The notes beneath the pieces are model-generated. The model had not been told where the DNA came from. It was given only the letters and a program-made list of their open reading frames with translations, and made no database searches. Of a stretch of 64,000 nt of DNA, positions 6,188 through 58,900 are shown one piece after another; the stretch's first letter is position 1, and the number at the start of each line of letters is the position of its first letter. The DNA comes from Liolophura sinensis (taxonomy: Eukaryota > Mollusca > Polyplacophora > Chitonida > Chitonidae). Position numbers and translations under genes: made by a program. The stretch covers positions 19,962,001 through 20,026,000 of the forward strand of contig NC_088307.1 in the NCBI RefSeq assembly GCF_032854445.1, given 5' to 3'.

Positions 6188-6319
6188 CTCAGCGGGGATT
6201 GTGCAATTACATCCCCAATTCTAAAACGGACACAACCGGAACGAAAATTACAAGCATAACATGGCGATATCCCGATCATAAAAAGTGTCCTGAGATATAC
6301 ATCACACTCACTTGGTGGC

Positions 6320-25800: not shown

Positions 25801-28800
25801 ATGGTGAATGGTACAGGTAGTTGTCATTTATTCAGGTCCTGCTTGTCATCAGCTGAAGCGTGAGACAACTTGTTGATATTCTGTTAGTATATACGCTCTG
25901 TGTCGTGTCCATATAAGGTGTCGATCTTCACTAAGTACTAAATTACAGAGGCCTCCGTGGCCTAGTAGTTAGTGTGCTAGAGCAGGACAGTGACCCTGGA
26001 ACTTCTCATCAGTGCGGTTGAGAGTTCAAGCCCAGCTCATCCTGGAGGTCATGGTTGTACATGAAAAAGTCTTGCAGCAACCTGTGGGTGGTCATGAGTT
26101 CCCCCGGCCTGGTTTCCTCCCTCTATAATGCCAGCTGGCTGTCATTGTACAAGTGAAATATTCTTGTACAGCTTAAAACACAAAACCAATAAATAAATTT
26201 TTGCTAAATTTGATGTCATTGCTGAAATATTTGCACTTTATATTTGGTTGGGGCCTCCGTGGCTCAGTTGGTTAGCGCGCTAGCGCAGCGTAATGACCCG
26301 TTAGTCTCTCATCAATGCGGTCGCTGTGAGTTCAAGTCCAGCTCATGCTGGCTTCCTCTCCAGCCATACGGGGGAAGGTCTGTCAGTAGCCTGCGGATGG
26401 TCGTGGGTTTCCCCCAGGCTCTGTCGGGTTTCCACCCACCGTAATGCTGGTCGCCTTCACATAAGTGAAATATTCTTGAGTACGGCATAAAACACCAGTC
26501 AAACAAATAAATTATATCTGGTTACATGCTTGAATGCGTTTTGTGGGAACGCGGTGATTAGAAGTATTTTGTTCTGTTACTATGGCTACATGACTTTGTT
26601 AAGGATGTTGGAGTCTTGAAAATTAAAAATTTTCAGAAATTGTCATTTTCTGCATGATGCATGATTAATTGAAATTTCAGATATCGATGAATGCGATTGG
26701 TTGTCTGGTAGGGTGTGCAGTCAGATGTGTACAAACTTAGCCGGGTCTTACCTGTGCTCCTGTTGGGAGGGTTACAGACTGGAACCAGACGGACACACAT
26801 GTAAAGTGAAGGGTATGCTCTGAAGTGTAATCTCTATTGTCTTGGACATCGATATACTGATAAATGAGCGATTAACAGAGGTGATACTCAGAAGTATTCT
26901 GAATTGGCTTAGTTATTTGGACTTATGATGAAACGCATTGGTACGAAAGCCGTGTTTTTTTTTGTTTTTTTTAAATTTCAGAGGCTAACCCAGTTTTGTT
27001 TTACTCCGAGGCACATCAGGTGCATTCCATTAACCTACATACCTCAGAAGTCAAGCAGCTTGTCAGTGGGAGGAAAAACATCACTGATATTGGTAAGTCA
27101 ACGTTTCAGACAGGGCTTTGAAAACTTGGAAAAACCCGGAATTTGAAAGAAAATGCAACTTTTCCAGGCCTTGAAAATCCTGGATAATGGTTTCATTATG
27201 GCTGGGCAAAGAAAACTTTGTAATTGAATAAGGAGAAACTTTCATTATGAGAAACTTTAGTGCAGTGGCTGAATTAATGTTGAAAAACATTGTAAAACTG
27301 AAAACTTGCAAGTTGAATAACTTTCCAAGGATATTGAATTTATCCCACAGCATATGACCAGGTTGGCACCCTGGGGACGTTGTTCTGGGCAGACCAGGAG
27401 GAGTCTGCTGTATTCAAAGCCCATCTGGATTACCCTTTGAGGAACCATGTCCTTCCTGTGGTGAATGTTGGTGAGTTGGCTCTGGTTTGGTTCAAGGATG
27501 TGGGTAGTTGATTTGAGGATAGGGGTTGAGGCTATTCCAGGAGGAGTCTGCTGTTTTCAAAGCCCACCTGGATTACCCTTTGAGGAACCACGCCCTTCTT
27601 GTTGTGAATGGTGGCTGTGGGTTTCTTCAGGGATGTGGGTTGTTGATCAGGGGTGTGGGTGTGGCCGATTCTATGATGATTCTGTGTTATCTAAACAAGT
27701 ACATATCGCTGTAACCAGCTGTTCAGTTTTTCTCCACCGATGAACTTCACTTGACCTCTGACATATTTGTGAAAAATACTTTCCCTGGGTTACAGTTTGA
27801 TTAAATACCTAAATGCAAGAAACTGAAAGAAAGGTGAAACTGTTTTACAGGATTATCAAGTCCACATGCGATAGCAGTTGATTGGTTGTCTGCCATACTG
27901 TACATCATGGATTCGGGATGCAAGGAGATCATTGGCTGTAGAATGGGAGGAGATTCCTGCACTATTCTGGTGAAACTTGATGAGAGTGATCTCCCCTTGT
28001 CCATAGTAGTGGATCCTAAGAATGGGTGAGATTAATAGAACATGTTAAAGGGATATACTGAAATTCAGAACTTGTGCATTGGGTCCGTTAAGTACAAAAA
28101 TGAGTTGCATTTTATTCCTTACTAAACCTCCTGGGCCTATATTTTCAAAAAAATGTTGGTTAAGAGAATTGGATTGGGAAATCTGTCACCGGTTTGAAGC
28201 GTCAGAAGCTATCTGTAAACAATACGATAGATTGAAAGTGAATTATAAGTCTAGTAAACCAAATACAATTTTGATTTCTATCGAAAATGTTTTATATAGT
28301 ATTCGGGGGCCTCTGTGGCTCATTTGGTTAGTGCGCTAGCACAGCGTAATGACCCAGGAGCCTTTCACCAATGCGGTGGCTGTGAGTTCAAGTCCAGCTC
28401 ATGCTGGCTTCCTCTTCGTCTGTATGTGGGAAGGTCTGCAGCAACCCGCAGATGGTCGTGGGTTTCCCCCCGGACTCTGCTCGATTCCCACCCACCATAA
28501 TGCTGGGCACCATTGTATAAGTGAAATATTCTTGAGTACGGCGTAAAACACCAATCAAATAAATAAATAAATAATAAAGCATTCGTAATTCCCATTGATA
28601 TGTATGGTAGAACTCAAATTCCGTTACTTCATAATTACAACACAATACTGTGTCTAACATTTGAAGTTTGCTGAACATGTCCGGTTGTCCAGATAACAAG
28701 GGGATGTAACTGGTTCAAAATGATCGGGGTTTCTAAATACAGCGACTTGAGTGAGTTGATGGTTGAAGGGAAACCGCAGAACATTCAATTGTTTGCTGAG

Positions 28801-31800
28801 TCAGATATGTGTCAGTAGACATTTGGCAGATTCAACTTTGTGAAGAGTATGTCTAAAATAACAGCACAATTTTTACAACGTTGGTTGTATGTCCCGTTAA
28901 AGGATTCATAAAATTTTGATTTCTTAATGTTAACTTTAGTAGGTATCCTAACATGAATAAGATTTTTAGCCTTGTTTTTTGCGTGGTAGAAATGGCATTA
29001 AAGTTGCTAAGGCCATAACTTTTACCTGTAATCCATATTTGTGACGTCTGTGATGAGGGGTAGTCTTCTTATGTTGGTTCTTGTTAAATACATTTCACAG
29101 GCTGACACATTAGATTGTAGTGTGGGGGATTCTCCGTATATTCTCCACATCAAAATTTCCCAGGCTGGTGATACAGGACTAGTGTGGAAGATTTTTTACA
29201 TTAGTTCAGTTCAGATATGTTTTACAGGCTGATGTATTGGATTATAGTTTGAGATTTTCCATACATTACTTCATGTCAGATAGGTTTTACAGGCTGATGT
29301 TTTGTATTATGGTTTGGGAGGTTCCCCATACATTATTTCCTGTCAGATATGTTTTATAGGCTGATGTATTGGATTATAGTTTGAGATTTTCCATACATTA
29401 CTTCATGTCAGATAGGTTTTACAGGATGATGTTACGGACTATGGTTTGGGAGGTTCCCCATACATTATTTCATGCCAGATATGTTTTACAGGATGATGTT
29501 ATGGACTATGGTTTGGGAAGTTTCCCATACATTACTTCATGTCAGATATGTTTTACAGGCTGATGTATTAGATTATATTTTGGGAGGTTCCCCATACATT
29601 ATTTTATGTCAAATAGGTTTTACAGGCTGATGTATTGGACTATGGTTTGAGATTTTCCATACATTAGTTCATGTCAGATATGTTTTACAGGTTGATGTTT
29701 TGGACTATGGTTTGTGAGGTTCCCCATACATTATTTCATGTCAGATATGTTTTACAGGCTGATGTTTTGGACTGTGGTTTGGGAGGTGTGTCAGATATAT
29801 ATACATTCTACAGGGGGGCCTGCGTGACCGAGGGGGTTAGCACGCCAACATGGCGCTGTGGCCATACATTACTTCAAGTCAGATATGTTTTATAGGTTGA
29901 TGTTTGGAACTATGGTTTGGGAGGTTCCCCATACATTATTTCATGCCAGATATGTTTTACAGGATGATGTTATGGACTATGGTTTGGGAAGTTCCCCATA
30001 CATTACTTCATGTCAGATATGTTTTACAGGCTGATGTTTTGGACTATGGTTTGGGAGGTTCCCCATACATTACTTCATGTCAGATATGTTTTACAGGCTG
30101 ATGTTTTGGACTGTGGTTAGGGAGGTGTGTCAGATATATATACATTCTACAGGGGGGCCTCCGTGACCGAGGGGGTTAGCACGCCAGCATGGCGCAATGA
30201 CCCAGGAGCCTCCCACCAATGTGGTTGCTGTGGGTTCAAGTCCAGCTCATGCTTCCTCTCTGGCCATACGTGGGAAGGTCTGCCAGCAACCTGAAGATGG
30301 TCGTGGATTTTCCTCCCACCAAAATGCTGGCCGTCGTCGTATAAGTTAAATATTCTGAAGTACGTCATAAAGCACCAATGAAACAAATAAATAAATAAAT
30401 ATTGGACTATAGTTTGAGAGTTTTACCATATATTTTGCCACATCATAATTTTATAGGGTGATGTATTGGACTAGTGCTGGTGATACTCCCTACATTGCTA
30501 AAGGCTCCATGGATGGGTCAGACTGGGATAAGCTGATCACTGAAGATCTGATCTACCCCTCTGGCCTCTTTCTGGATCAGACTACGGAACGCTTGTACTG
30601 GGCCGACCCCAAGAAGGGCAGGATTGCCAGTTCAAATTGTGATGGGACAGACATCCAGGTACAGTGCGCTTACAGTCTTTTGACCCCGTTGGTGCAGATG
30701 TTACATCTCGGTGATGGTTTTGTCTGCACATGCACATCACAAGCTAGGTCCCTAGGATTGAGTAAAACTGCTATATCTGCAACATTATCCTGGCTGAAAA
30801 TGAGTTGTAAGTTCTTCTGGAGATAATTTAAGTTGACAGAAGCGAAAATTAAAATGGCAAGGAGTTCGTTTCAAAGACAAAATCAGAAGTCTTGCTCTAG
30901 GACACATACATGTACATACATATAGATAGGGCCATTTCTTTGAGCCATTTTAGTTCCACAAGACATTTAGGCTCCCAGACTGTTGGGCGGAACATTACAG
31001 GCATGATCAGTTATAGTTTCATTTTATAAAATTCCTTTATGTACAGTCAAAATGTTGCCTTTAAAGTTTGGGATCAGAGCCTGTAACACTTTTCTAGACC
31101 CTGATCAGAAAATGTATATATTTTTTTTTGGCTTGTAATTCAGGGGGCATCACTCATGTTCATGTTCAATCACACTTTATATTGTATATATATAAGTCCA
31201 GCCTTCAGTGCACACATATTTTTATTTGTTTAAAATTACTGAATTCAGCATGAAGGGGATAGTGCAACAACTGGTTGACCCGTATCAGTATAATGGCTTG
31301 GGCGGGGCAGCTTACTTGCCTTCAGTAAGGTGTCTCAGTGAAGCAGCACTAGATAAAAGGATGGTGGAAATCTGTCCTGCAACAAGGAAGCACATTACAT
31401 GCACTCTAAGGATTCCTTCGTCGTCATATGACTGAAAAATTTTTAAGTGAGATGTCAAACCCCAAGCGCTCACTCACTCACTCCAATTACTAAACTTTGG
31501 AATTTCCCTCCAAAATGTATTTTACATCTGTTCTTGGTTCAAAGTTTTATTGGGAGGGAAATATGCAGTGACCTTGCTCTGAGGTCGAATTACTGAGCTG
31601 TAATGGGAATGTTATAAGTGCCCTATTTGAGCAATCAGTTCCATGGACATGGATCCTGAGAATAGTTAACCGGATTCTGGGAATAGTTAGCCGGATTCTG
31701 AGAATAGTTAGCCGGATTCTGAGAATAGTTGTCCGGATTCTGAGAACAGTTGGCTGGATTCTGAGAACAGTTGGCTGGATTCCCAGCCTTGTTCTACATA

Positions 31801-34800
31801 AACTATTCTCCAGTTTCACACTGAGGCATTTATATTGAAAATTTTGGTATAGAATGGAACCTTTCCAAACCTTAATGAAAAAAAATGGGAAAATTAGGAT
31901 TTTTTTTTTTTTTCTTTGTGGGTCTGGAAAACCCTTGAAGTTGAGAGCCAGCGTGTACTGTGTGTTGATCTGTACACGGACAAACCTGACAGACAACTAA
32001 CCTGAGCTTACACTGTAATATGCTTACACTATAATATCCATACACCGTAATATCCATACACTGTAATATCCACACACTGTAATATGCAGACTTTCTCCAG
32101 AAGAAATTTGTTTTCCAGAGTCTTTGAAATTATTTGATGCACTGATGTGTTTATTAGAATCTTGAAGTGCTACTTCAGGCCCAAAAGAAACTAGGTGAAA
32201 ATAGGAAAATGATGTAGGGGATACCCAATGGAATGGTAACGGTTCACCACGGTTCTAAAATATTTACAGTGAATAATACTATTTAACCCCAATAAGTGAA
32301 TGAGTCCTCAAAGACAAAATCTTTGGCAGTTTCCGTAAAATTCTTCTGATGTGATGTAATGTGATAATATTCCTTTTGTGGCGATGAATCAGGAAGATGA
32401 GATGTTGAGTAAGGCATTTGTGCAGGAATGATGTCATACGTGTTCGAAAGTACGACGTCATTTGTCATCACATGTGTATGTCAACGATGGGTGACGCCAA
32501 GTGTTCTTGCATGATGTCACGCCCAGCAAAATTGGAAATGACAAAACTTTTGTTTCTGTATTATCCTCCTAAACTAACAGCGGTTTTAATACAATGCATT
32601 TTTTTTTTTTTTACAGTTTGTGAAAACAATTTGCATTATCTTAACCCTTATTTACACTGCCATTAAAATAAACAAGTCTTAACTCTGAAGTAGTTCTTTA
32701 ACATCATTTTACATTGCTTAGCATAAAGAAAGATTGTTTATTCCCAGTTGCTGGAAAAAGTAAGTTTTGGGTCTGGAAAGGCCGTTAAAAATACTGGAAA
32801 TTTGACATTAATGTAGATGGTCCCTGTGTCTGATTTGTTTATTTAGTTTACTGGCCTGGAACAGCGAAGCTGTATTTGATTTTTTTGTTTAAATCTGAAT
32901 TAACTGATTGATGATGTGTGCAATTTCAGGATGTTCCTTGTGAAGTGGGTGCCGCCCAAAACTTGGTGGTTTTCGAAGACAAACTGATTTGGACGGAACT
33001 TAACACCAGCAGTGTCCTGATGGTCAATAAATTCACTGGGAAGGGACTAAAAACCCTTGTGAAGATGATGAAGCAGCCACGGGGGCTCTATATTGCTCAC
33101 CCTGTCCTGTATAAACCAGGTAAGAGAATGAGACAATCATTGGGGCTCGGTGTTGCTCACCCTGTCCTAAATAAACCAGCTGAGAGTATAGAAAACACAA
33201 TATTGCTCACCCTATGCTCAGTAAGCATGGTAAATGCATGAGACAGCCACGGGGGTTCTACATGTATATTGCTCGTCCTGTCCTGTATAAACCAGGTAAG
33301 AGAATAAGACAACCACAGGGACTCCGTTTCCCACCCTGTCCTCTACAAGCCAGGTGAGAATATACAAAGCACAATATTGCTCACCCTATGCTCAGTAAGC
33401 ATGGTAAATGCATGAAAGAGCCAGGGGGCCTCTGTATTGTAAGAGAACCAACCACTGGGGCTCTGTTTCCCACCCTGTCCTCGACAAACCAGATGAGAAT
33501 ATAGAAAGCTCGTCTGCCAGCAACCTGCGGATGGTCGTGGGTTTCCCCCCGGGCTGTGCCCGGTTTCCACCCACCATAATGCTGGCCGCCGTATAAGTGA
33601 AATATTCTTGAGTACGGCGTAAAACACCAATCAAATAAATAGCTCAGTGTTCATCCTGAGCTCTATAAACATAGTAAGAGCATGAGACAACCACTGGGGC
33701 TGTTTCCCACCCTGCCTTGCACAAACCAGGTGAGAATATAGAAAGCTCATTGTTGTTCAACCTGTGCTCTATGAACATAAAATTAGAGCATGAGACAACC
33801 ATGGGGATTCTATACTGGTAACCGTCTGCTGTCGTCGTCATATGATTGAAAAATTAAGTAAGGTGTTAAACCCTAAGTATTCATTCATTAATTCATTTAT
33901 TCCTGTACTCTGTAATCAGGGTAAGAGCAGGAGACAGCTGTGGGGCTCTATATTGGTCGCCCTCTGCAGTCGTCATATGACTGAAAAATTGTTAAGTACA
34001 ATGTTAAACCCCAAGCCTTTAGCCATTCATCAATTCATTCATTCATTCATCATTTCATTCATCCATTCATTCATCCATTCATTCATTCCTGCACTGTGTA
34101 AACATCGTAAGAGCATGAGACAATCACGGTCTTCCATAAACTAGGTTATGGAGATCATGGATGACTATATTGCTCACCGTGTCAAACACAAAGTATCGTT
34201 GGCTCTGCCATGGTTCTGTTGTTCAACCAGCCTTCCACGGATGACTGCCCGCTCTGTCCTCCATAAACCAGATGAGATCCTGGCTAACTCTATTATATTC
34301 CTCTAGCTCTGTAAACTAGAGATCATAGAAGACTGTGGCCCACCCTGTCCTCTATAAACTAGAGATCTTAGAAGACTGGCCCACCCTGTCCTCTATAAAC
34401 TAGAGATCATAGAAGACTGTTGCCCACTCTGTCCTCTATAAACTAGAGATCACAGAGGACTGTTGCCCACCCTGTCCTCTATAAACTAGAGATCACAGAG
34501 GACTGTTGCCCACCCTGTCCTCTATAAACTAGAGATCACAGAGGACTGTTGCCCACCCTGTCCTCTATAAACTAGAGATCACAGAGGACTGTTGCCCACT
34601 CTGTCCTCTGTAAACTAGAGATCATAGAAGACAGTGGCCCACCCTGTCCTCTATAAACTAGAGATCATAGAAGACTGTGGCCCACCCTGTCCTCTATAAA
34701 ACTAGAGATCATGGAAGACTGTGGCCCACCCTGTCCTCTATAAACTAGAGATCATAGAAGACTGTGGCCCACCCTGTCCTCTATTAACTAGAGATCAAAG

Positions 34801-37800
34801 AAGACTGTTACACACCCTGTCCTCTATAAACTAGAGATCATAGAAGATTGTGTCCCACCCTGTCCTCTTTTAACTAGAGATCATAGAAGACTGTTGCCCA
34901 CCCTGTCCTCTATTAACGAGAGATCATAGAAGACTGTTACCCACCCTGTCCTCTATAAACTAGAGATCCTAGAAGACTGTGGCCCACCCTGTCCTATTCC
35001 AACCATACATTTGAGTATGGTGTTAAGCCCCATTGAAGTAAATGAATTGAATATTCAACTCTCCTATTAAATCTGTTTGTGTTTCAGAGGAGAGACCATG
35101 TCGTTCTGACAATCCTGTGTGTAGTGACCTGTGTCTACTCTCACAGACCACCCCAGGGACAGAGCCCAGCTATAGGTGTGCCTGTCCTGTGGGTAAAAAC
35201 TTGGCTATCAACCAGACCGTCTGTGAAGGTAAAGAGCTTGAATTGAAAATGTGGTGGATACTGGGTCACAGAATGAAAGTTATGCAAAATCGTTGGAGTA
35301 GAATGAAGTTGTGCAAATTGTTGCCTTAAATGAAGTGGTGTTATGCAAATCCTGGCAACCGAATGACGTGCAAATCATTTCAGTAAAAGGGAGTCGTGCA
35401 AATCGTTCCAGTATTTCAGTGAACTGTTAGTCATGCAGATTATTGCAGTGGAATAGAGGTGTTGTGCAAATGGTTGCAATGTGAAGGATGAATGAAAGGG
35501 GTTATCAGGCCATCGTGCAGCAGTCCTATCCTTTGTTACAAACCAGGTTGATACTGGGTAATGAGTGCATGCCTATACTTAAGTGGTGTGCATTTTAGGA
35601 GAGTTATTTGTGACCCATATTAGCATAACAATTATTAAACCAATCAGAGGGAAATTTTGGAAATGTTTACAATAAAATTAATACTGGTCTTAACCACACC
35701 ATACACAACCAGACATTTGTAATAATCGTTGTCTTAATGTTTACTCTATAGATTTTTGTCTGCAAAGTTTGAATATCAAAAATATTGTTGGAGAGTGACA
35801 AACATTATCCATACTGCTCATGCGAATATAAGTTATTTTTCTATCCAATATGCTTTTTTTTTAAATATGAACATTTTTGTTAGAATATAAAATTTAGTGT
35901 ATATTACATGGCATTGCACCTGCTCTTCTGAAAGAAGTATTAATGGAAGTCTTCTTATAAAATGGGTCAAATATTTATCATTTTGATCCGTGAAAGAAAT
36001 ATTGACATGTACATGCTCTGATAATCGTCTTTGTTTTTCCCCCCCCCTTTTATTTGCAGATAGTCATAATAGCCCGTTTCTAATGGTAGGCCACATTGAC
36101 GAAATTATTAAAGTTGACCTGAACTACATCGGTAAAATTCCTTACAAGACTTTCGCTGTGCCGTCTGCAAAGAAAATAGTGGCCTTGGACTTTGACCCTG
36201 TGAGAGATGCTGCCGTGTACAGTGACATGACCCGGGGTGTCATCGGGGCCAGGAAGCTCTTCACACGGAGCGTACCCAGAGAGTAAGACCATCGTCATTG
36301 TGCTCTTTCTGTTCACCAAGTAGTGAGTGAGTGAGTGAGTGCTTGGGGTTTAACGTTGTACTTAACAATTTTTCAGTCATATGACGACAAAGGAATCCTT
36401 AGGCTCACCAAGGAAGTTCCAGTTCTTCTTACTGTGTGTGATCTAGCTTGAGTTGTGGCAGGTTCAAATCCAGCTTCTGCTCTTATTTACTCTGCAAGTA
36501 ATTTTGATAGTGGCATGACCCCAGCATAGGCTCCAAACCAGCTGGTGTCTCCACGGCCGGGTAGTTACAATGCCAGTGCAGCACGATGAGTTAGGAGGCT
36601 GTCAACAATGATGTGACTTTCAGTCCAGCTCGTGTGAGCTCTGTCTTTGATTGCTGGTTTGAAGGTCAGCTTTAAGTCAGAAGATTTCCTTCCCAGGCAC
36701 CATGGCAAAGTTTGGATTTCTGTATGCCCTTGCTAGTCACATATGTACCTCAGAAGAATTCTTCAAATAGTGAGATTTCCCTGGCACCATGGCAAAGTTT
36801 GGATTTCTCTATGCACTCTGCCTTGCTAGTCACATACGTACCTCAGAAGAATTCTTCAAATAGTGAGAATTCCTGAACACCATGGCAAAGTTTGGATTTC
36901 TCTATGCACTCTGCCTTGCTAGTCACATATGTACCTCAGAAGAATTCTTCAAGTAGTGAGATTTCCCTGGCACCATGGCAAAGTTTGGATTTCTCTATGC
37001 ACTCTGCCTTGCTAGTCACATACGTACCTCAGAAGAATTCTTCAAATAGTGAGATTTCCCAGGCACCATGGTAAAGTTTGGATTTCTCTATGCACTCTGC
37101 CTTGCTAGTCACATATGTACCTCAGAAGAATTCTTCAAATAGTGAGATTTCCCTGGCACCATGGCAAAGTTTGGATTTCTCTATGCACTCTGCCTTGCTA
37201 GTCACATATGTACCTCAGAAGTATTCTTCAAATAGTGAGATTTCCCAGGCACCATGGCAAAGTTTGGATTTCTCTATGCACTCTGCCTTGCTAGTCACAT
37301 ATGTACCTCAGAAGAATTCTTCAAATAGTGAGATTTCCCAGGCACCATGGAAAAGTTTGGTGTATGACTTTATGCACTCTGCCTTGCTAGTCACATACAT
37401 ACCTCAGAAGAATTCTTCAAATAGTGAGATTTCCCAGGCACCATGGAAAAGTTAGATGGATTACCCTATGCACTGCGCCTTGCTAGTCACACATACATAT
37501 ATACCAAGGAGAAATAAATAAAATAGAGGCTGCATGCACCAGCTCTTGTAGGACCTTATACGTTGCAGATTCAGTGGCAAACAATGTGACAGCCTTTTGT
37601 TGCCCAAAGTTAGAAACCTCAAATTGATAACCTTTCATGTTCGATCAGTATCTTTGGCAGCCCCATGTTTTTTGGCATGTATATTTGGCTACATCTGTAA
37701 CTGTTTCTCTGCAGGGAAGTGATTGTAGACCATATTGCTGGAGATGTTGAATCGGTGGTGGTTGATTGGGTAGCCGGAAATCTGATGTGGACGGACTCCA

Positions 37801-40800
37801 CAAAGGTAAGGAGGATTGGCTATATGGAACTTAGCGAGCAGGGAAGATGTCGCAATAAAATGATACATCTTAATGGCATGTTCTATAAATTGATGGGATA
37901 ATTTTACATTCATTTGACATCATTATCTTCATTTTGCATTATTATTACCAGTGTCACCTCATTGGACACACCTTTTTTCTGTATGGGACAGTGTCTCCTC
38001 CATGGGACATTAGCAGGTGCAAGACGGAAAAATGTGTTAGCAACTATGGCTAGAAAGTCTTAACTGTTTTGTCTCAGAAAAACAAAGTAACCAGTTTCCT
38101 GTATGTTTATAAAGTTTTAATTGAAATAAAATAGACATTCCTGGAATGTGGGGCTTTAAATGCAGCCAAGCATTCCATTAATAATATTTTGTCCAACTGA
38201 AGAAAATGTTTTTATTCACATGAAACATAATTAATATCTGAAATAATGGTCATGAAAAGCAGTTTTCATTGTTTTGCCACCATGCTTACTACAAGATTGT
38301 GAATGGCTGTAATTACAGGCCTCCAACAAAGCGAAAGTAATTCCATTATCACGGATCTAATTTTTGTCTCATGATTTGGCAAATACATTTCTGATAACAA
38401 GTGCACTTTTGTTGTATTCATGAGCAAGCTAAAGTTCAAGGAAGTAAAGTATCCCTTGTTTCTGGTTTCTTAATGACACTTAAGTAAATTTACCGTGTAG
38501 TCTATAAAAAGTGTAGTAAAAGTTTGATAGCTGACTAATACTCTGCCAGTGTAATGGCTGACTAATACTCTGCCAGTGTGATGGCTGACTAATACTCTGC
38601 CAGTGTGATGGCTGACTAATACTCCGCCAGTGTGATGGCTGACTAATACTCTGCCAGTGTGATGGCTGACTGATGCTCTGCCAGTGTGGTGGCTGACTGA
38701 TGCTCTGCCAGTGTGGTGGCTGACTGATGCTCTGCCAGTGTGATGGCTGACTGATGCTCTACCAGTGTGATGGCTGACTGATGCTGTGCCAGTGTGATGG
38801 CTGACTGATGCTGTGCCAGTGTGATGGCAGGCTGATGCTGTGCCAGTGTGATGGCAGGCTGACTGATGCTCTGCCAGTGTGGTGGCTGACTGATGCTCTG
38901 CCAGTGTGGTGGTTGACTGATGCTCTGCCAGTGTGGTGGCTGACTGATACTCTGCCACCGCAAACGATCAACTGCTCTTAACACATTTGCTTGTTTATAT
39001 ATTAGTTTGCATGAATCAACCAATCACAGAACTTATTCATCAAAGCTATGAGACTCTGTGGGGACACCTGGGCCTGTGTGGGGACACCTGGGACTGTGTG
39101 GGGACACCTGGGCCTCTGTGGGGACACCTGGGCCTCTGTGGGGACACCGGGGCCTCTGTGGGGACACCGGGGCCTGGAAGGGGGGGGGGAGGGGGTGCAT
39201 CAGGTCTCTGGTTTACGAGTTTCTGAATCGAAGTCCAAAATGTAATTTTATACTAGTGCTTAATTGTAAGTTTGAATCACTGCCAGAGGATAGGTATTGA
39301 CCTACCCTTAGTCATACATGTTAGCTTTAGTGGAAGGTTTGCCATAGTCAGCTGGAAGCAGATCGAGATTAATCCTGCCAGAGGATAGGTATTGACCTAC
39401 CCTTAGTCATACATGTTAGCTTTAGTGGAAAGTTTGCCATAGTCAGCTGGAAGCAGATAGAGATTAATCCTGCCAGAGGATAGGTATTGACCTACCCTTA
39501 GTCATACATGTTAGCTTTAGTGGAAAGTTTGCCATAGTCAGCTGGAAGCAGATTGAGATTAATCCTGCCAGAGGATAGGTATTGACCTACCCTTAGTCAT
39601 ACATGTTAGTTTTAGTGGAAAGTTGCCATAGTCAGCTGGAAGCAGATTGAGATTAATCCTGCCAGAGGATAGGTATTGACCTACCCTTAGTCATACATGT
39701 TAGCTTTAGTGGAAAGTTTGCCATAGTCAGCTGGAAGCAGATTGAGATTAATCCTGCCAGAGGATAGGTATTGACCTACCCTTAGTCATACATGTTAGCT
39801 TTAGTGGAAAGTTTGCCATAGTCAGCTGGAAGCAGATTGAGATTAATCCTGCCAGAGGATAGGTATTGACCTACCCTTAGTCATACATGTTAGCTTTAGT
39901 GGAAAGTTGCCATAGTCAGCTGGAGGCAGATTGAGATTAATCCTGCCAGAGGATAGGTATTGACCTACCCTTAGTCATACATGTTAGCTTTAGTGGAAAG
40001 TTTGCCATAGTCAGCTGGAAGCAGATTGAGATTAATCCTGCCAGAGGATAGGTATTGACCTACCCTTAGTCATACATGTTAGCTTTAGTGGAAAGTTGCC
40101 ATAGTCAGCTGGAAGCAGATTGAGATTAATCCTGCCAGAGGATAGGTATTGACCTACTCTTAGTCATACATGTTAGCTTTAGTGGAAAGTTGCCATAGTC
40201 AGCTGGAAGCAGATTGAGATTAATCCTGCCAGAGGATAGGTATTGACCTACCCTTAGTCATACATGTTAGCTTTAGTGGAAAGTTGCCATAGTCAGCTGG
40301 AGGCAGATTGAGATTAATCCTGCCAGAGGATAGGTATTGACCTACCCTTAGTCATACATGTTAGCTTTAGTGGAAAGTTTGCCATAGTCAGCTGGAAGCA
40401 GATTGAGATTAATCCTGCCAGAGGATAGGTATTGACCTACCCTTAGTCATACATGTTAGCTTTAGTGGAAAGTTGCCATAGTCAGCTGGAAGCAGATTGA
40501 GATTAATCCTGCCAGAGGATAGGTATTGACCTACCCTTAGTCATACATGTTAGCTTTAGTGGAAAGTTGGCATAGTCAGGTGGAAGCAGATTGAGAATAA
40601 TCCCAATGCCCTGTAATCAGTAGGTAGTGGTTGTTGTATGATTTATTTGTCTGTTTCAGGGTTCCATAGAAGTGGCAAGGCTAAACGGTTCGTTTCATGT
40701 TGCTTTGTCAGAGAGTCTGGATGGAACTCCCACTGCTTTAGCGATTTATCCCAAGAACGGGTGAGTATATCTTTACAAGTCATAGAATGTAAATTTGGTG

Positions 40801-46800: not shown

Positions 46801-49800
46801 ATTTGCATATCAAAGACCAAGAAAGTTTTTTTTCAACTCATAGCTCAATATTTACGTTGTCACCCATAGTACATGTATAATGCCAAATGCATTTCTCGAT
46901 TTGTATATCAAAGACCTCTGTCGTCGTCATATGACTGAAAAATTGTTGAGTACGACGTTAAACCCCAAGCATCTCACTCACTCAAAGACCTCTGTGATAA
47001 ATTTGTGCACGAAATCCCCAGTGTCTTTTTACCCCTGTAGTGATCTACAACTCCATGACAAATGAAGTAAATGCTCTGCAACCCTGATGCATCAACAAAC
47101 AGTGATAGTTGAATAATAATGTTGGCCTTTGTAGTTGATTTAATGGCAAAATCTTAGCACTGTCTAATTAGAGCATAATATCTTTGTATGACAGTGTCCG
47201 TCATTCTACTTTATTTTGGTTTAAAGGTCATTATTTGAACATATTACAGGACTTGAACATTACACAGTTTTTACGAACTACTCAGTCAGGGGAGCTACTG
47301 GTATTCTCTGAATGCCTTGTTCATGTGGGTATCCTTCTAAACAGATACTACAGAAGAAACCTTGGAATGTTCTGTGGAGGAGATGCTCTGTGATAAAGTA
47401 CGCTGTGTTGAGCTGAGTAAACTGTGCGACGACAGACTGGACTGTGAGGATGGCATGGACGAAAAGAACTGTGAGCGGCCGCATACCTGCAGCAGTGAAG
47501 AGTTCGCGTGTACACACAATAACAGAGACATCTGCATCCCATTTTCTTGGGTATGTGACGGAGACAAAGACTGTGACAATGCCACTGAAGAAGCAAATTG
47601 TAAGTAACAGAAAATGTGAACCAAGTTTATTGAAAAAAAAAATTGTTAGAAAGCAGCTCAAAATTTTGAACCAGTTTGTTGAACGCAAGTGTAGAACAGC
47701 CAGCATAAGATATGAACCATTTTGTTAAAGCAAGTTCTATTGTAAGGCTGAATTTCAATAGATATATGGGGAGAGCACAAAATTTTCAACTAGGTGAAAG
47801 AAATTGTAAGGCCTGAAAAATTGTAAAGCATGAAATTGTGTGCCGGTTTGTGAAAGCAGAAAGGTCTGGTTATTCATGGAGTTATTTGAATAACTTCATA
47901 GCTTTTTGCTAAGCCGACATAGTTTGACAGCATTATGTGGCTGTCCTGTAAAGAGAATCTAGCAATTGGAGGCAAGGTTCCCCCCCATGATTTGCTTGGT
48001 TTCCACCCCCATGATTTGCTTGGTTTCCCCCATGATTTGCTTGGTTTCCTCTATGGTGTCAGGGCCTCAATGGTTAACACGCCAGCGCAGAGCAATGGGA
48101 AGGCCTGTCAGCAACCTGGTTGTGGGTTTTCAACCTGTCCAATTTCTCTCACCATAATGCTGGTTGCCTTCATATAAGTGAAATGTTCTTGTGCAACGTG
48201 AAACACCAATCAAATAAACAAACCTGTGGTGTCAATGCTATTATTATATAGTTTGTGGTATCCTTCATGGCTTGAATGATTTCCTACATGAATTGCTTTG
48301 TTTCCATGGTTTTGATTGCCTTCATGGTTTTGATTGCCTTCATGTTTTTCATTGCCTTCATGTTATATGGATTGTTGTCTTCACCAATTAGTTCTTTTGG
48401 GTACAGTTTACAACAGTCTTCTTTCAAACAATTTCAGGTGATAAAAGTTGCTCGACTGACGAGTTCACCTGTGTGAATAAGGACTGTGTGCCCAATGATG
48501 TGGTCTGTGATGAACTAATAGACTGTGGGGACGGCTCGGATGAGACCAATTGTGAGTCGGTGCTATTTGGATTTTATTGCCTGTTTTGTTACCATGAAGA
48601 ATCCCGTTGTTCTGTATAATATTTAACTTCAAGTCAAGTTTTCAGATTTTGTACTAAGCCAAAATATTACTATTAAACATGATGTTAAGTATGAACCAGG
48701 TCTGTAACTGGGTGGGGTGTCATGTGTGGTGTCTTCAGCATGACATTTTCGTGTCAGCAGCACTTAGTTGGCTGCATGGACTCACCCTGCCACGAAAAGA
48801 CACAGTATATCTACATACACCTACTGACTTGTCCTGACGGAAAAATGATAAAGTACGACATGTAAACTCAAGCATATGTACATTTAATGCCATATTCAAA
48901 CATTGTTCGCTTATACTACGGCGGTCAGTTTTATGGGTGGAAAAACATCCAACAGTTGACCAGTCCAGACATTCAACTTCGGTCTTTATTTATTTATTTG
49001 ATTGGTGTTCCACACTGTACTCAAGAATATTTCAATTACGCAACGGCGGCCAGCATTATGGTGGAAGGAAACTGGGCATAGCCTGGGGAAAACCCACGAC
49101 CATCCGCAGGTTGCTGACAGTCCTTCCCACTGGGTCAATACTCTATAACCTTCCCTGTGAAAATTTTATGCCACCATTGTGTACGTGGAAAATTTTTCAG
49201 TATAAAAGCACCAATTTAAATGAATTCTATATTTTACATTGTAAATATATCATTCACTATCATTTAAAACTTTCCTTTTTAAAACAGTCAATAACGTTCT
49301 AATACAACATGGAATGTGAAGCCGCTCAACAAGGCTGTCGCTATGAGCTTGTGCTGACTTATAGACTGGGAATAAAGTCTGCCAGTATTCAGCAGATGGT
49401 CGTGGTTTTCTCTTAGGGCTCTGCCCAGTTTCCTCCCACCAGAATGCTGGCTGCCGTCATATAACTTGAAATATATTTGAGTACAGGGTAAAACATTAAT
49501 CAGATAAATGAATTCTAAAACAAAAGGGCTTAGAAATGCACTACAAACATGTAGTTCTTTGTTATCAGCGCTTATGCCTGCCCTAAAAATTAGGTTTAAT
49601 ATTTACAGTAATGCCTAAATGTTTACCAGGTCCTACCATCCCAGATCTGATGCCGGAGGATCTGTGCAGCAAGTATGGCATGTTTCTGTGCGAGTCTGGA
49701 ACTTGTATTGAGTCCTCCAATCTGTGTGACAAAAAACCGGACTGCGAAGATGGTGATGATGAAGATTGGTTTCGCTGTGGTAAGACTTATCACACATGCA

Positions 49801-52800
49801 ACAGTTGGAATAAAGAATTTCCCTTTAGACCATTGGTAGAAACGTGGACTCGAAACCCAAAGATTGCTGATTCAAATCCCCACTTAGAAATCTTGAAAAA
49901 CTTGGATTTGGTGATTCACCTGCTTTCATTGCTTGTGAGGGCTTTGTGAAAATGAACAGTAGATGATGCTTGTGCAGGGGATTTATTCAAGGCTGCCTGC
50001 TTTGACCGATGCTCCAGTTTTACTTCTTTCAAGTCCAGCTCATGGTGGCTTCTTCTCAGGCCATCTGTGGTAAGGTCTGCCAGCAATCAGCGGATGGTGG
50101 TGGGTTTCCTCAGGTTCTGCCCAGTTCTCACCATACGAGTAAAACACCAATCAGATAAATAAATGAATATTACTTCATTTAATTCCATCGGGTAACTGAC
50201 TTTTGTTTCCCAGGGTATTCTTATGTTCAAAAAGATTTTTAAAGCCCAACTCTTGTGGCGGCACATATGTTGGATATTGGGGTAATCTAGAATTGATCTG
50301 TTTGAGTTTTAGGCTAGAAGATTGAGGAATTCTGTATGCATATCTGATGCTTTTGTGTTTGACAGGAGGACAGGTGTGTGGCGAAGACGACTTTCTCTGC
50401 TCTGATGGCTTCTGCATAGAGCAGCGCTACCGCTGTGATGGAGAGAGGGACTGCAACGACAACTCGGATGAGGATCCCGTCCTGTGCATCAATGTCACCA
50501 CAACAACACTGGCTCCTCCCCCTGGTAACAACTTCTCATGAATTTGTGTTTGCATGGAGCGTTAAGGGGCTGCATGTACCATCACAAAACTCAATAAATC
50601 AATTTTTAGCTCACCTGTACGAAGTAAGGAGAGGTACTGTGATAGGGGGACCAGAAACCATTGATGGCAGTGTCGGTGTCCAGCTTGTTGGCCAATCATA
50701 GTTACAGTGGCCATCCATCGTACACAGATAACCAATCATCGGTAGCAATTTGCATAGCAAAGACCAAGAAAGTTTTTTTTACCACATAGCTTAACATTTC
50801 CTCCGCTGTTCAGAGTTGCAATTGCCACCCATAGTACATGGATTGCCAAATGCAGTTTGTGATTTACAAATTAAAGATCTCTGCAGTGAATTTATGCTCA
50901 AGCTGCCCACAGTGTCTTTCACCACCACAATGATTTACAACCCCATAACATATGAAGTCACTGCCCTGCAATCCTTACGCATCCGATAAACGATCAGAGT
51001 TGTGACAGTTTAATAATTTTGGCCTTTCTTGTTGATTTAATGGCAAGATCTTAGCACTGTGTAATTAGAGAATACTCTCTGTATAGCAGTGTCAGTCTAC
51101 TGTTTGGTTTAGAGGTCAATATTTGAATGTATCACATGACTTGAACGTTATGCAGTTTTATGAACTGCTCAGTCAGGCGAGCTACAGGTAGTCTTGGATT
51201 GCTTTTATAAGAACTGGTACAGTGAGATATCATTGAGCTGTCTCTGGGTAATCTGGGGAAGTGTGTGCGGTAGCAAGTTCTGAATAGTAGACTTGAAAGA
51301 AAGAAGACCAACTCACTTGAAAATACCTTGCAGTTAAATACAGGATTGTTGACAAAGAAATAGGAAGTAAAAGATAGAAGGGAAATCTTCGCAGGCCGGT
51401 TTGTGTGCTGAACTGATGTTGAGGACGGCCTGCGTGCTGGGGATGTCTGACTAAACCTAGATGCATAAATACAGTGGCATATGCAAAAGCTGTTGTGACT
51501 GTGAGTCTTTACTGGTCAACTGTCCCAGAAGAAAGAGCTGTTTTAAACGCGTGTAGGAAAATCATGATGAAACCTAAACTACATATACAATGTTTCAACG
51601 GAGTAATAACTAATATAAGAACAATGAGACAATGCATACGGTTATACCTTAATCACTGATAAGGTGTGACCAGGTAAAGGATGATTGGAGTTGACAACTG
51701 ACTGACATATGCTTAGTTCTGTTAAAGAATTGTGACAACACTCACTCACTCACTTATGCCTAACCTAAGTGACACATCAGTTTACTGGGAATATGAGAAG
51801 GGTGAAAGCGAATGCAATAAGTTCATGTCTTATGTGGGCATGTGTAAACTACTGGGCACACATGGAAGTATTGGCGATATATGTAACTCTAGCATAGACC
51901 AAGGTAATAGATGTCATGAATGTAAAATACAGTGTGCATTCAACTATCAAAGTAGCAGCAAGAATGATTAAACCTATCATTATCTTAAGGCAGCTCGGCC
52001 AAATGGGATCAAAACTTTTCACAACTTGGGAGCGAAATTGTTTAGTTTAAACAAAACAAGGTAATAATCATTATCAAGATTATTAAATATTTATCCATGT
52101 TGCTACTGATTACCAATGAGGGAATTAAAATATAAGACATATGGATTATTGACATTCAGTTGGGGCTGCCATTTTGTCACATGATCGAAACAGAGTGGGG
52201 CTCTGACCCATCCCACGGTCCAGGATTTTATTAAATTTTTTTTTTTTTATTTAGCATCAAAAATACATACACCTCTACAAACAAACTTTGTCTAGTATTG
52301 AGACAAACACATTTACAAACAAACACGTATAACAACTAGACATAAACGAATCAAGACAAACAGGAATACACCCATACGAACATTAAACAAGATGATAGAA
52401 CGGAACATAGATTCGGACTGAACAAATAGGCCTGATCTTATCATACTTTTGTTTGTTAGACACCTGTGAAAAAGGTCTTCATTTCATTTCAAATTATCCC
52501 TTGACCCAGGCCACAGCTGAGGATTATCATACCTGTGACTGGCTGTATACAAAGGTCACTTTGTAACTAAATGGTTCAAGCGGACTCTACAAATATTACT
52601 TTAAAAGCTACAGCACATGCACCAAAGTATTAAAGGTGATAACATTACAATATCATGTAACGTGTTGAAGTTACCAGTGGAAATATTCGATTGATCATAG
52701 TCCAAAGATGGGAAGTAGTGAATTCAGAAAATTTCAATGTTTTGCTGATTAACATCTTAATAATACACTAGAACACTAAGGTAAACTTTTTGATGTCAAC

Positions 52801-52847
52801 TCCATGGTCAGTTACACAAAAGATGAGGAAGAAGGGGGAGAATATGT

Positions 52848-52905
<58 letters not shown>

Positions 52906-55900
52906 CCAATTGTTTGACACAAAAATTAAAATACATGTCCAATGGTCCCACATGACTCTATTTAATAAATAATTAAAATACATACTGTTCATGCTACCAT
53001 TCTGGGGGCCTCCAGGGCCATACTGTTACCTAGACGCTAAATACAGTGGCTTACACAAAAGTTCCTGTGACATATTCTTTACTGATGGGCTCTCCTAGGA
53101 GAAAGAGGGGGACTTCTGTCTCTAACCCCCCTAGGACACCAGATAGGTATTAAATCTAAAATCTTGTTTGTTTTCAGTTTTCTGCACATTCCGACATTCC
53201 TTATGCACACACTGTCCCCATGTATTAAACTAGAACATTTGCCAAATATTCGTGTTTCTAAATTTTTTCTTCCAGTTCGTATGTTTTTATCCTTGTAGAG
53301 TTTTGCAGTTCTGACATGTTCCGCTGTGAGTCGGGTCACTGCATACCGTGGACATCCATGTGTGACGGAGCCGAGGACTGTCCGAACGGCTCTGATGAAG
53401 GAGGACTCTGTGGTGAGAAATATTGATACTGACATTCACAAAAAAACGTGATTTTTCATTGAATCAGTTCAGAGCACATAACACACATTGCAACAGATTT
53501 TTTGATTTATTATTTTATTTGATTGTTGTTTTATGCCGTACTCAAGAATATTTCACATATAGGACAGCAGTCAGCATTACGGTGGAAGGAAACGGCACTG
53601 AAACTTTGTAGGACTTAATTGGTTTGCTGTGCTTTGTAATATGTATGTACATGTGTAACCTTTATAGGTGATGAAACATTTCCAGATGGTGGCTTAATAA
53701 CTGCCAAAATATTGAGCACAAAATACATGAGCCTTATTTGAGTAGTTTACATGTGTTAGTCCCCAGCAGGTACCAGAGAGTACACGTATTCTCCTCCTCT
53801 GTCCTTTAGTCACAAGTCTTTCAACGAGGTTCATCATATGAAATGAAACTTGATACAAGTCTTAACCAGGAGGACTTAGACGTTGAGTTTCAGATCACTT
53901 CATCAATCTTACACGTTAGCTATTATTCTGACAGCTCAACCCAGCATGGAGAAAAGCAAGATGTACTATCACAGTGCTGTTAAATGTTTGTGTTCTTTTG
54001 GTGTGCTTCATTTTTCCTGATGTCATACATTGAGTAGTTTGTTTGGCACCCGCCTGTTTTTTGTGTCCCCAGAGTCTGCCTGTGTGGATTCGTCCTGTAA
54101 CCATGTCTGTATGCCTACCCCTACTGGTTCCCTGTGTAGGTGCCATGAAGGATTCACCATGTTGTCTGACAATGTCACCTGTATAGGTAAGCGCATTGAC
54201 CATGTTGTCTGACAGTGTCACCGGTATAGGTAAGCCCATTGATCGTGTTGTCTGACAGTGTCACCTGTATAGGTAAGCCCATTGACCATGTTGTCTGACA
54301 GTGTCACCTGTATAGGTAATCCCATTGACCATGTTGTCTGACAGTGTCACCTGCATAGGTAATCCCATTGACCATGTTGTCTGACAATGTCACCGGTATA
54401 GGTAAGCCCATTGACCATGCTGTCTGACAATGTCACCGGTATAGGTAAGCCCATTGACCATGTTGTCTGACAGTGTCACCTGTATAGGTAAGCCCATTGA
54501 CCATGTTGTCTGACAATGTCACCGGTATAGGTAAGCCCATTGACCATGCTGTCTGACAGTGTCACCTGTATAGGTAAGCCTATTGATCATGTCTGACAAT
54601 GTCACCTGTATAGGTAAGCCCATTGATCATGTTTTCTGACAGCGTCACCTGTATAGGTAAGCCCATTGACCATGCTGTATGACAATGTCACCTGTATAGG
54701 TAAGCCCATTGATCATGTCTGACAATGTCACCTGTCTAGGTAAGCCCATTGATCAAGATTCCACTTGAATACTTAATTTTTCACACATAATAATTGCAGG
54801 GTTTGTACATTTTAAACATTTCAAACTTCCAGGCCACGTGAAGAAATATATTTTATAGCATCAAGGCATTGCTGCAAAGAATTCTAATATTCAATGTTAT
54901 TTAAGGCCTGGAAGAGATATTTTGTGATTCCAGACTTCCCAGTGTTTTCAGAGCCCTGTACAAACCCTGTAATTGTGGTAATTCCATGCCGCAGTCCTAG
55001 AAGGAAGCACTCTTAAATGTTATCTATGCATGCATCATTGCAAAAAGTAGCTGAGCATTATGAAACTTTTTTATTTTAAGAATAAGGGGCCTCCGTGGCT
55101 CAGTTGGTTAGTGCGCTAGCACAGTGTAAAGACCCAGGAGCCTCTCACCAATGCGGTCACCGTGAGTTCAAGCCCAGCTTATGCTGGCTTCCTCTCCAGC
55201 CGTATGTGGGAAGGTTTGTCAGCAACCTGCGGATGATTGTGGGTTTCCCCCGAGGTGTTCCTGGTTTCCACCCACCATAATGCTGGCCGTTGTCGTATAA
55301 GTGAAATATTCTTGAGTACGGCGTAAAACACAAATGAAATAAATAAAGAAATATTTTAAGAATAAAGATACAAGAAAGCATTTTTATTGATTTAATTCTT
55401 TGAATTTTGCATTTACTTAATCCTTTAGGCCTTGCCAATTTAAATGTTTGTTTTATTGGCAGAATGAATTTTTTTCTTTTTTTTTTTTTTCAGTTTTGTC
55501 GGAAAGAAAACTAGAAAGTCATCTAATTTTAGGAAAATGTGCCAGACTTTCCAGACTGTTGTTCCTGTTATAAATGTACTTAAGTGATTTGGAAAAACTT
55601 AAACAATCATTAAGCATTAAGGTCCAACAAAACAAAAATGTGGATTTTTATGTTTGTTTTTATTCTATTTTTAGATTGTTTTAGTGTTGGCTCGTGCGTG
55701 AAAAAAAGAAAAACAAAACCAAATGAAATTGGTGTTGTGTTAATTTGTCTTGATGCAGAGTTAGATTTATATAGTCAAGAATTACAACTCTATCGATGCA
55801 CATTGTCAACTTTAAACATGAGGCAAAGATAGCACTTAAGGCAAAGTGAAGAAAGGATTCAAACTTCTAAAGAGCAAACTTTCAGTTTGTAGAAATAATC

Positions 55901-58900
55901 AAACAGTTGTTAGATATGCACATTAACAGCGTTACAAAGTGGTATGGACTAGTGCTAAGACTTTCCTCTCTCTTCACAGATCAAGATGAATGTGCTGTCA
56001 GTGTTCCACTTTGTAGTCAGATGTGTGTTAACACCGAAGGATCCTTCTCCTGTAGGTGTGCTGAAGGATACAGCCTGACCAGTGACAACAGAGGCTGTAA
56101 GGCCATGGGTAGGTCATGGTAGGTTATGTGGAGTCAGATGTGTGTTTACACCGAAGGATCCTTCTCCTGTAGGTGTGCTGAAGGATACAGCCTGACCAGT
56201 GACAACAGAGGCTGTAAGGCCATGGGTAGGTTATGTGGAGTCAGATGTGTGTTAACACCGAAGGATCCTTCTCGTGTAGGTGTGCTGAAGGATACAGCCT
56301 GACCAGTGACAACAGAGGCTGTAAGGCCATGGGTAGGTTATGTGTAGTCAGATGTGTGTCCACACCGAAGGATCCTTCTTGTGTAGGTGTGCTGAAGGAT
56401 ACAGCCTGACCAGTGACAACAGAGGCTGTAAGGCCATGGGTAGGTTATGTGTAGTCAGATGTGTGTCCACACCGAAGGATCCTTCTTGTGTAGGTGTGCT
56501 GAAGGATACAGCCTGACCAGTGACAACAGAGACTGTAAGGCCATGGGTAGGTTATGAGTAGTCAGATGTGTGTTTACACCGAAGGATCCTTCTTGTGTAG
56601 GTGTGCTGAAGGGTACAGCCTGACCAGTGACAACAGAGGCTGTAAGGTTATGGGTAGGTCATGGTAGGTTATGTGGAGTCAGATGTGTGTTTACACCGAA
56701 GGATCCTTCTTGTGTAGGTGTGCTGAAGGAAACAGCCTGACCAGTGACAACAGAGGCTGTAAGGTCATGGGTAGGTCATGGGTAGGCTATGTGTAGTCAG
56801 ATGTGTGTCCACACAGATGGATCCTTCTTTTGTAGGTGTGCTGAAGGAAACAGCCTGACCAGTGACAACAGAGGCTGTAAGGTCATGGGTAGGTCATGGT
56901 AGGCTATGTGTAGTCAGATGTGTGTCCACACAGATGGATCCTTCTCCTGTAGGTGTGCTGAAGGATACAGCCTGACCAGTGACAACAGAGGCTGTAAGGC
57001 CATGGGTAGGTTATGTGTAGTCAGATGTGTGTCCACACCGAAGGATCCTTCTTGTGTAGGTGTGCTGAAGGATACAGCCTGACCAGTGACAACAGAGACT
57101 GTAAGGCCATGGGTAGGTTATGAGTAGTCAGATGTGTGTTTACACCGAAGGATCCTTCTTGTGTAGGTGTGCTGAAGGATACAGCCTGACCAGTGACAAC
57201 AGAGGCTGAAAGGTCATGGGTAGGTTATGAGTAGTCAGATGTGTGTTTACACCGAAGGATCCTTCTCCTGTAGGTGTGCTGAAGGGTACAGCCTGACCAG
57301 TGACAACAGAGGCTGTAAGGTCTTGGGTAGGTCATGGTAGGTTATGTGGAGTCAGATGTGTGTTTACACCGAAGGATCCTTCTTGTGTAGGTGTGCTGAA
57401 GGAAACAGCCTGACCAGTGACAACAGAGGCTGTAAGGTCATGGGTAGGTCATGGGTAGGCTATGTGTAGTCAGATGTGTGTCCACACAGATGGATCCTTC
57501 TTTTGTAGGTGTGCTGAAGGAAACAGCCTGACCAGTGACAACAGAGGCTGTAAGGTCATGGGTAGGTCATGGTAGGCTATGTGTAGTCAGATGTGTGTCC
57601 ACACAGATGGATCCTTCTCCTGTAGGTGTGCTGAAGGAAAGGGGCTGACCAGTGACAACAGAGGCTGTAAGGCCATGGGTAGATCATGGTAGGCTATGTG
57701 TAGTCAGATGTGTGTCCACACAGATGGATCCTTCTTTTGTAGGTGTGCTGAAGGAAACAGCCTGACCAGTGACAACAGAGGCTGTAAGGTCATGGGTAGG
57801 TCATGGTAGGCTATGTGTAGTCAGATGTGTGTCCACACAGATGGATCCTTCTTTTTTTAGGTGTGCTGAAGGAAACCGCCTGACCAGTTACAACAGAGGC
57901 TGCAAGGCCATGGGTAGGTTATGTGGAGTCAGATGTGTCCACACAGATGGATTCTTCTTTTGTAGGTGTGCTGAAGGAAACCGCCTGACCAGTAACAACA
58001 GAGGCTGTAAGGCCATGGGTGGGTCATGGTGGTCTATGTGGAGTCAGATGTGTGTCCACACAGATGGATTCTTCTTTTGTAGGTGTGGTGAAGGAAACCG
58101 CCTGACCAGTAACAACAGAGGCTGTAAGGCCATGGGTAGGTCATGGGTAGGCTATGTGTAGTCAGATGTGTGTCCACACAGATGGATCCTTCTTTTGTAG
58201 GTGTGGTGAAGGAAAACGCCTGACCAGTAACAACAGAGGCTGTAAGGCCGTGGGTAGGCCTTTGTAGGTTATGCGCAGTCAGATTTATGTGTCAACAGGT
58301 GGAAAGCCTGAAGATCTTGGTGGCTTTTTTCCCACTGTAGTGCTGGCTGCAGTCCCATAAATTCAATATTAGCGTAAACACCAATCAAATATATATCAAT
58401 AAATTAACTACCTCCATAGCCAGACGTTTTAGGTAAGAACAAACATGTGTGATAGGATCCAAACGTTTAGAGCAAAATTAGAATCCCAAGCAACATAATG
58501 TGTATCCCAATATACAAGGTGCTTGCACGGGGAATTTTCCCTCTCTAAATATTTTTGGGGCCTTGGTGTCTACAAATGGTTGACAGTTGACGCTAGTGTG
58601 GCGGCGTCCACTCTCTGACCTGAGTATGTTGATGACCACTTTCTTCACCAAATTCATTTGTGGCATGGATGTCATACTTGCCAAAGGTTGGTGGCTTTAA
58701 TATTTGGGCTCGCTGTGAGTTCAAGCCCAGCTTATGCTGGCTTCCTCTCTGGCCGTAAGTGGGAAGGTCTGCCAGCAACCTGCGAATGGTCGTGGGTTTC
58801 CACCCACCATAATGCTGGCTGCCGTCGTATAATTGAAATATTCTTGAGTATGGCGTAAAACACCAATGAAATAAATAAATAATATTCAGACACTCCGCTT

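Follow-up and report, generated by a model that had tools for sequence, protein, structure and literature searches.

Minisatellite arrays straddling exon-intron boundaries in an LRP2-like gene and other genes of a chiton

Introduction

Why should tandem repeats inside the introns of a gene be made of the ends of the gene's own exons? The question is raised by a stretch of 64,000 nucleotides from the chiton Liolophura sinensis (G000:C13:19962001-20026000; genome of 609,464,459 bases in 632 contigs), in the following called the window, which carries on its plus strand a gene for an LDL-receptor-related protein. A sequence-only reading of the window had proposed that intron arrays of this gene are built from exon/intron boundary pieces of five exons, that they start at exon ends, and that a systematic process rather than coincidence is behind them. 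These proposals were followed up in the window and in sequence from elsewhere in the genome. The arrays probably arose by tandem duplication of DNA over an exon-intron boundary and subsequent minisatellite growth, and would then be of the type described in lancelets as mirages.

Results

Five exon ends of the LRP2-like gene are copies of tandem repeats

By local self-alignment, five of the 27 modelled exons, E9, E11, E12, E25 and E26, were found overlapped by tandem clusters, and no others. The proposal that arrays are built from boundary pieces of five exons was borne out, with the same exons numbered 10, 12, 13, 26 and 27 in the sequence-only reading, apparently by a shift of one. In each of them the exon end is itself one copy of a tandem repeat on the intron side (Table 1). 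At the four donor cases (E9, E12, E25, E26) the first copy consists of the exon end and its donor, while at the single acceptor case (E11), where the array precedes the exon, the last copy consists of the acceptor and the exon start. The E25 array reiterates its exon end together with the donor, the E26 unit is made of the final 97 exonic nt and about 20 intronic nt, and the E11 unit contains TTTTACAG directly before the junction. Tandem Repeats Finder gave 13.9, 14.1 and 20.1 copies for E11, E25 and E26, respectively. For E12 it gave 1.9 copies of 174 bp, to which decayed copies and a derived 16-copy array have to be added; the derived array (34240-35025) appears to be a second generation, produced by another amplification round of the E12 end. 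At E9 there are two copies.

Of the five arrays, those of E11 and E26 were compared in part with the genome; both matched their own locus alone, in a search that scores the best candidates only and skips very common words. The same units were thus not met elsewhere, and an origin of the units from a transposon or dispersed repeat was rejected for these two arrays. What we take to be a tRNA-derived short interspersed nuclear element (SINE) separates the E11 array from its exon, and the array itself contains the head of such an element (29790-29862 and 30127-30398), so that part of the array would have grown after the SINE insertion.

The gene holds 19 arrays in total, and 14 of them straddle no exon end, among them the one that descends from the E12 end. 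The long 31-, 95- and 93-bp intron arrays at 16669-18321, 39275-40603 and 36690-37491, respectively, are of this non-straddling kind.

Table 1. Exons, arrays and derived copies at the five exon ends, in window positions (a slash marks the exon-intron border)
Feature	Positions	Strand	Remarks
Exon E9 (YWTD propeller)	27351..27470	+	3' end and donor duplicated once downstream; exon model, alignment
E9 two-copy donor-side duplication	27394..27694	+	shift 143 bp, 77 exonic nt; copy 2 without donor (deleted)
E11 acceptor-side array	29059..30126	+	67-bp units, TTTTACAG/ within unit; decayed before 29197
Final decayed copy of E11 array	30399..30499	+	enters first 43 nt of exon E11
Exon E11 (YWTD)	30457..30658	+	exon model; cluster 29059-30499 overlaps 43 exonic nt
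Exon E12 (end of first propeller)	32930..33119	+	exon model
E12-end donor-side copies, decayed	33062..34127	+	58 exonic nt, then GTAAGA
Secondary 43-bp array resembling E12-end copies	34240..35025	+	donor GT lost from consensus
Exon E25 (EGF module)	54073..54186	+	exon model; 3' end TGTATAG/GTAAGCGC
E25 donor-side array	54152..54760	+	43-bp units, 35 exonic nt in cluster; GT in 13/13 aligned copies
Exon E26 (calcium-binding EGF module)	55980..56108	+	exon model
E26 donor-side array	56012..58303	+	117-bp units, 97 exonic nt in cluster; GT in 19/19 aligned copies

Donor ends are straddled more often than expected in the window and in other genes

First, the placement of the arrays in the window was compared with chance, as the sequence-only reading had suggested. 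When the units of 16 arrays listed by hand were placed at random, 0.75-1.38 straddling cases were predicted versus 5 seen (P 0.0001 to 0.007), the range covering four overlap thresholds. In an automatic count 4 donor ends were found straddled with 0.73-0.91 expected (P 0.007-0.014), and 1 acceptor end with the same expectation (P 0.5-0.6). As the window had been picked because of the finding, other sequence was sampled. The 40 kb that follow on this chromosome, 84 kb of an LRP1-like gene (C4), seven myosin stretches (101 + 11.6 kb) and 19 ABC-transporter loci were fetched. The downstream 40 kb contributed 13.5 kb further along the LRP2-like gene, in which exons could be recognised and which were chosen after looking at the sequence, and the final count outside the window comprised 266.9 kb with 153 exons, 110 arrays and 18 ABC-transporter loci. 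Two MyC1 clusters (whole duplicated exons) and the locus L029 (many stops) were dropped; L026 and L027 were entered on the wrong strand, with no straddling array in either. An exon end was taken as straddled when at least 6 exonic and at least 8 intronic nt lay in the cluster; arrays at C4 9657, MyC4 839, L023 1672 and C10 stretch 249 are adjacent to exons and were not scored as straddling. Exon borders were corrected by eye at MyC2, L023, C4 52388, C4 47056 and two exons of the last replicate (described below). As a quarter of the non-exonic sequence is array, coverage is misleading, and seeds (unit length times junction density) were counted instead of covered bases. The expectation varies with the unit chosen, and values for the shortest, the best-scoring and the longest unit are all given.

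Outside the window 17 of the 153 exons were found straddled, 13 at donor and 4 at acceptor ends, in several unrelated genes, and all 17 were confirmed by eye in the sequence. Expected were 3.2 (shortest unit), 4.1 (best-scoring) or 4.3 (longest) cases per side. For donor ends this is a three- to four-fold enrichment (P 3.4e-5, 3.5e-4 and 5.9e-4, in the same order), while acceptor ends showed no excess over the expectation (P 0.4-0.6). Using non-LRP genes only, 8 donor ends and 1 acceptor end were found with 1.3-1.7 expected each (donor P 6e-5 to 4e-4). With the window added, 17 donor and 5 acceptor cases were obtained among 180 exons, that is 22 straddled exons. The donor:acceptor asymmetry reached p = 0.049 outside the window (13:4) and p = 0.017 with the window (17:5). 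A stricter overlap of 20 exonic nt, applied before the last replicate, left 8 donor ends versus 2.8 expected (P 0.008). Both kinds of case are illustrated by MyC3 13948-14941, a cluster of a 124-bp unit that includes 115 nt of a myosin exon, and by MyC2 1182-3005, where a 32-bp acceptor unit with 9 exon nt occupies 1.8 kb ahead of the exon.

Two further loci of the sample are noted here. The uncounted locus L004 holds at 3671-6651 (C13:20059671-20062651) a 92-94-bp array of about 32 copies, which has its start in the 3' end of a frame that resembles an exon and shows the donor GTGAGT in 31/31 aligned copies. At L034-L035 (C1, MyC1 local 5692-6886) three near-alike adjacent myosin exons were found (LEDQI.QANPVLEAYGNAKT), which are perhaps mutually exclusive alternatives.

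Most aligned copies keep a donor and drift without strong codon bias

The state of the copies was analyzed for 16 donor arrays, a set that includes the L004 array and excludes L021 and the row C4_52389. GT was kept in 140 of the 154 aligned copies, and 113 of the 154 equalled or exceeded the authentic donor in score; the alignment favours well-kept over decayed copies (for E12 one only was found). In single arrays, GT retention amounted to 0/1 at E9, 0/3 at C4 28603 and 7/14 at MyC11, and at MyC12 2758 a full-strength donor was present in only 1 of 17 copies. Differences between copies and exons numbered 76, 87 and 101 at codon positions 1, 2 and 3 over the 16 arrays (frame ambiguous in three). 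With differences at all three codon positions, the copies are under no strong coding constraint. At the two exons checked for it, E25 and E26, splicing to the second donor would lengthen the message by 43 nt, with a frameshift and a stop, and by 117 nt that contain a stop in frame, respectively. Given these stops, the first donor is presumably the donor in use.

Discussion

A reading as boundary-straddling minisatellites of the mirage type

The reading we favour as probable is a tandem duplication at the DNA level over the exon-intron boundary, followed by minisatellite growth. In a first step, a short piece of DNA (roughly 30-140 bp) including the boundary would be duplicated in tandem. In a second, the duplicate would expand into an intron array by ordinary minisatellite turnover, through unequal exchange or slippage. 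On the donor side the real exon would stay the first copy with a first donor still usable, and the copies behind it would be inert intron. Donor-side copies are probably tolerated as the first donor still serves. On the acceptor side the real site would have to be the last among many look-alikes, which should be harder to tolerate. We infer that exon neighbourhoods undergo duplication more often, and that many acceptor-side cases are removed by selection since their products often fail. The crowding of array starts around donors, for which numbers are given below, speaks for this reading as well as for a donor-specific process.

Structures of this kind are known from lancelets (amphioxus), where mirages were described in Adh3, the globins BflGb6 and BflGb9 and TnC, with similar arrays in PGBD5 (PMC3087553, PMC3902484). 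In the parts of these papers considered here, mirages are reported not to disturb splicing (PMC3087553, PMC3902484) and are described as possibly general in cephalochordates, and the globin paper calls their origin unclear (PMC3087553). The arrays of the window fit the structural features of mirages. They are minisatellite-like tandem duplications, multi-copy at E11, E25 and E26, partly decayed at E12 and of two copies at E9. The repeat unit crosses the exon-intron boundary, both borders are affected (17 donor and 5 acceptor cases, counting the window and the sampled genes), and most of the aligned donor-side copies keep their GT, acceptor copies being unscored. As far as described in the accounts at hand, lancelet units likewise cross the border on either side, the arrays are intronic, many copies keep AG or GT, and the unit lengths overlap (10-160 bp in lancelets). 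Differences lie in the organism, here a mollusc, and in the scale, 180 exons being counted here whereas lancelet genes were treated gene by gene. A donor-side excess over a chance model is given here, but not in the available parts of PMC3087553 and PMC3902484. Lancelet mirages are further marked by undisturbed splicing and by length instability, also somatic; the chiton arrays are known from the sequence of a single haploid assembly. Ordinary intronic minisatellites share similar unit sizes and head-to-tail growth with the arrays, as the 14 non-straddling arrays of the gene illustrate, but the straddling units include coding sequence and an authentic splice site.

New here is a mirage-type structure in a mollusc, another phylum, and in several unrelated genes, the type itself being known from lancelets. 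No mollusc case turned up in open-licence PMC listings, which is no proof of absence. The presence of mirages in a mollusc would make the process either old or recurrent. The chiton genome supplies enough cases to measure duplication start points and whether donors are hotspots, and also bears on how the spliceosome tells the authentic donor from a dozen copies that are just as good. Competition among decoy splice sites, an effect raised by the sequence-only reading, is possible given the donors kept in the copies.

Several points weigh against the reading as boundary-straddling minisatellites. Taken alone, the E26 copies lean to the third codon position (39/605, 29/595 and 53/598 at positions 1, 2 and 3). 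Pooling both sides outside the window, 17 cases stand against 6.5-8.7 expected, a two to two and a half-fold excess only (P 4e-4 to 8e-3). A last replicate, for which the rule was set beforehand, covered 35.6 kb (24 kb LRP1-like, 11.6 kb myosin) with 25 exons and 20 arrays, the first array continuing the one at the end of L010. It showed no donor excess, with 0 donor and 2 acceptor cases versus 0.93 expected each; both straddled exon starts were placed by eye and are included in the totals. Before it, 13 donor and 2 acceptor cases had been counted in 128 exons, so it is the sequence sampled earlier that carries the asymmetry, and the donor excess is not uniform. We are also aware that exon borders outside the window were placed by homology and a splice-site matrix, with some corrections by eye, and not by RNA. 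The two-copy cases (E9, L021) are easier to spot than old duplications within introns, because selection holds their exon copy unchanged. Finally, the tests do not separate a higher rate of duplication from better survival. The proposal of a systematic rather than coincidental process found support at donor ends, and none at acceptor ends or in the last 35.6 kb.

Alternative explanations

A donor-specific process linked to transcription or splicing, in which R-loops, polymerase pausing at the donor or U1-bound nascent RNA makes the duplications, is conceivable though doubtful. The 13 donor versus 4 acceptor ends would follow from it, and array starts indeed peak at the donor: 11 versus 3.5 expected were found at -60 to -6 (last 55 exon nt counted), 9 versus 4.2 at -5 to +60 and 26 versus 21.4 at +61 to +400. 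However, the cluster borders keep no fixed distance to the junction. The exonic overlap varies from 6 to 115 nt, so there is no fixed break point and nothing indicates a cut at the junction itself; the units have no common starting point. Array ends also accumulate near acceptors (8 versus 4.2 expected from -5 to 60 nt upstream, 3 versus 3.5 inside the exon and 26 versus 21.4 at 61 to 400), which points to exon neighbourhoods generally. These look somewhat hot on both sides, with the donor side additionally admitting arrays. Moreover, donors with and without an array score alike (medians 6.5, n = 16, and 7.0, n = 117; p = 0.64), and tolerance by itself could yield the asymmetry. Only tentatively could one extend the idea to donor sites as hotspots in the chiton, perhaps in molluscs at large, where transcription or splicing seeds short tandem duplications and introns grow from their 5' ends as the exon end is copied again and again.

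Chance is an improbable explanation: in a genome full of intron arrays some seeds would land on exon ends, and only the straddlers would be noticed. It fits the 24.9% of sampled non-exonic sequence that lies in arrays, the acceptor ends at expectation, the modest pooled excess and the last replicate, which agreed with chance. It is at odds with the donor ends outside the window (13 versus 3.2-4.3 expected, P 3e-5 to 6e-4), and with those of non-LRP genes alone. Base composition was rejected as the cause of the excess. In the sample before the last replicate, G+C was 0.418 in non-straddling arrays, 0.377 in introns and 0.48 in exons, and G+C matching in coarse bins raised the expectation by a factor of 1.04 only.

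Retention of the copies for a function, as spare or decoy splice sites or as extra exons, is very improbable. The high GT retention in the aligned copies would agree with it, as would strong acceptor-like sites, somewhat commoner on the sense strand of the 89 non-straddling arrays (14 versus 7 antisense). Against it, the second donors of E25 and E26 lead to stops, the exonic parts of the copies drift without strong codon bias, and the donor was lost or weakened in several arrays (E9, C4 28603, MyC11, MyC12 2758). Nor is there a clear sense-strand donor excess in the non-straddling arrays: donor scores of at least 8 occurred in 8/89 on the sense and 6/89 on the antisense strand, and the higher score lay on the sense strand in 51 and on the antisense strand in 38 (p = 0.20). 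By the same counts, an origin of many of the other intron arrays from unseen exons was largely rejected.

That the arrays are birth scars of new introns, which would have formed through duplication of exonic sequence holding a proto-splice site (Rogers model), has hardly any probability. Tandem duplications at or near splice sites can create introns according to the accounts considered (PMC4974935, PMC2891723, PMC3629103), with cases from potato RdRp, Drosophila and fission yeast, and in potato the duplication likewise crosses the splice border (PMC4974935). There, a new intron is formed, whereas here an intron is lengthened. The model predicts arrays touching both flanking exons; 0/22 straddling arrays link one exon end to the next exon start or touch two modelled exons (L021 has one modelled exon only), and it was rejected.

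Tandem arrays are a known trouble spot for assembly. An assembly artefact is nevertheless the least credible explanation, since point changes distinguish the copies and, although coverage is given as 14X for the Liolophura japonica assembly, its HiFi reads, with a stated mean length of 8,347 bp, exceed the counted arrays of up to about 3.4 kb (PMC11068029).

Exon model and further observations in the window

The LRP2-like gene shows LDLa, EGF and YWTD exons from 13.8 kb onward. A stretch of 394 residues of its translation had LRP2 (megalin) chains as best PDB match (E 4e-282) and Pfam matches to LDL-receptor and EGF families. The model comprises 27 exons at window positions 13795-59474, each preceded by AG and followed by GT, and E6-E27 fuse into a single open frame of 1,100 residues. 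A 1-nt frameshift was found within a G run of the LDLa exon E5 (22441-22568). With 128 nt this exon is 1 short of symmetric phase, the G run apparently lacking one base, either through an error of sequencing or as a genuine lesion. At 5902-6689, ahead of the modelled exons, an open frame of 153 codons (+) overlaps one of 137 codons (-), and the two are possibly the remnant of a mobile element.

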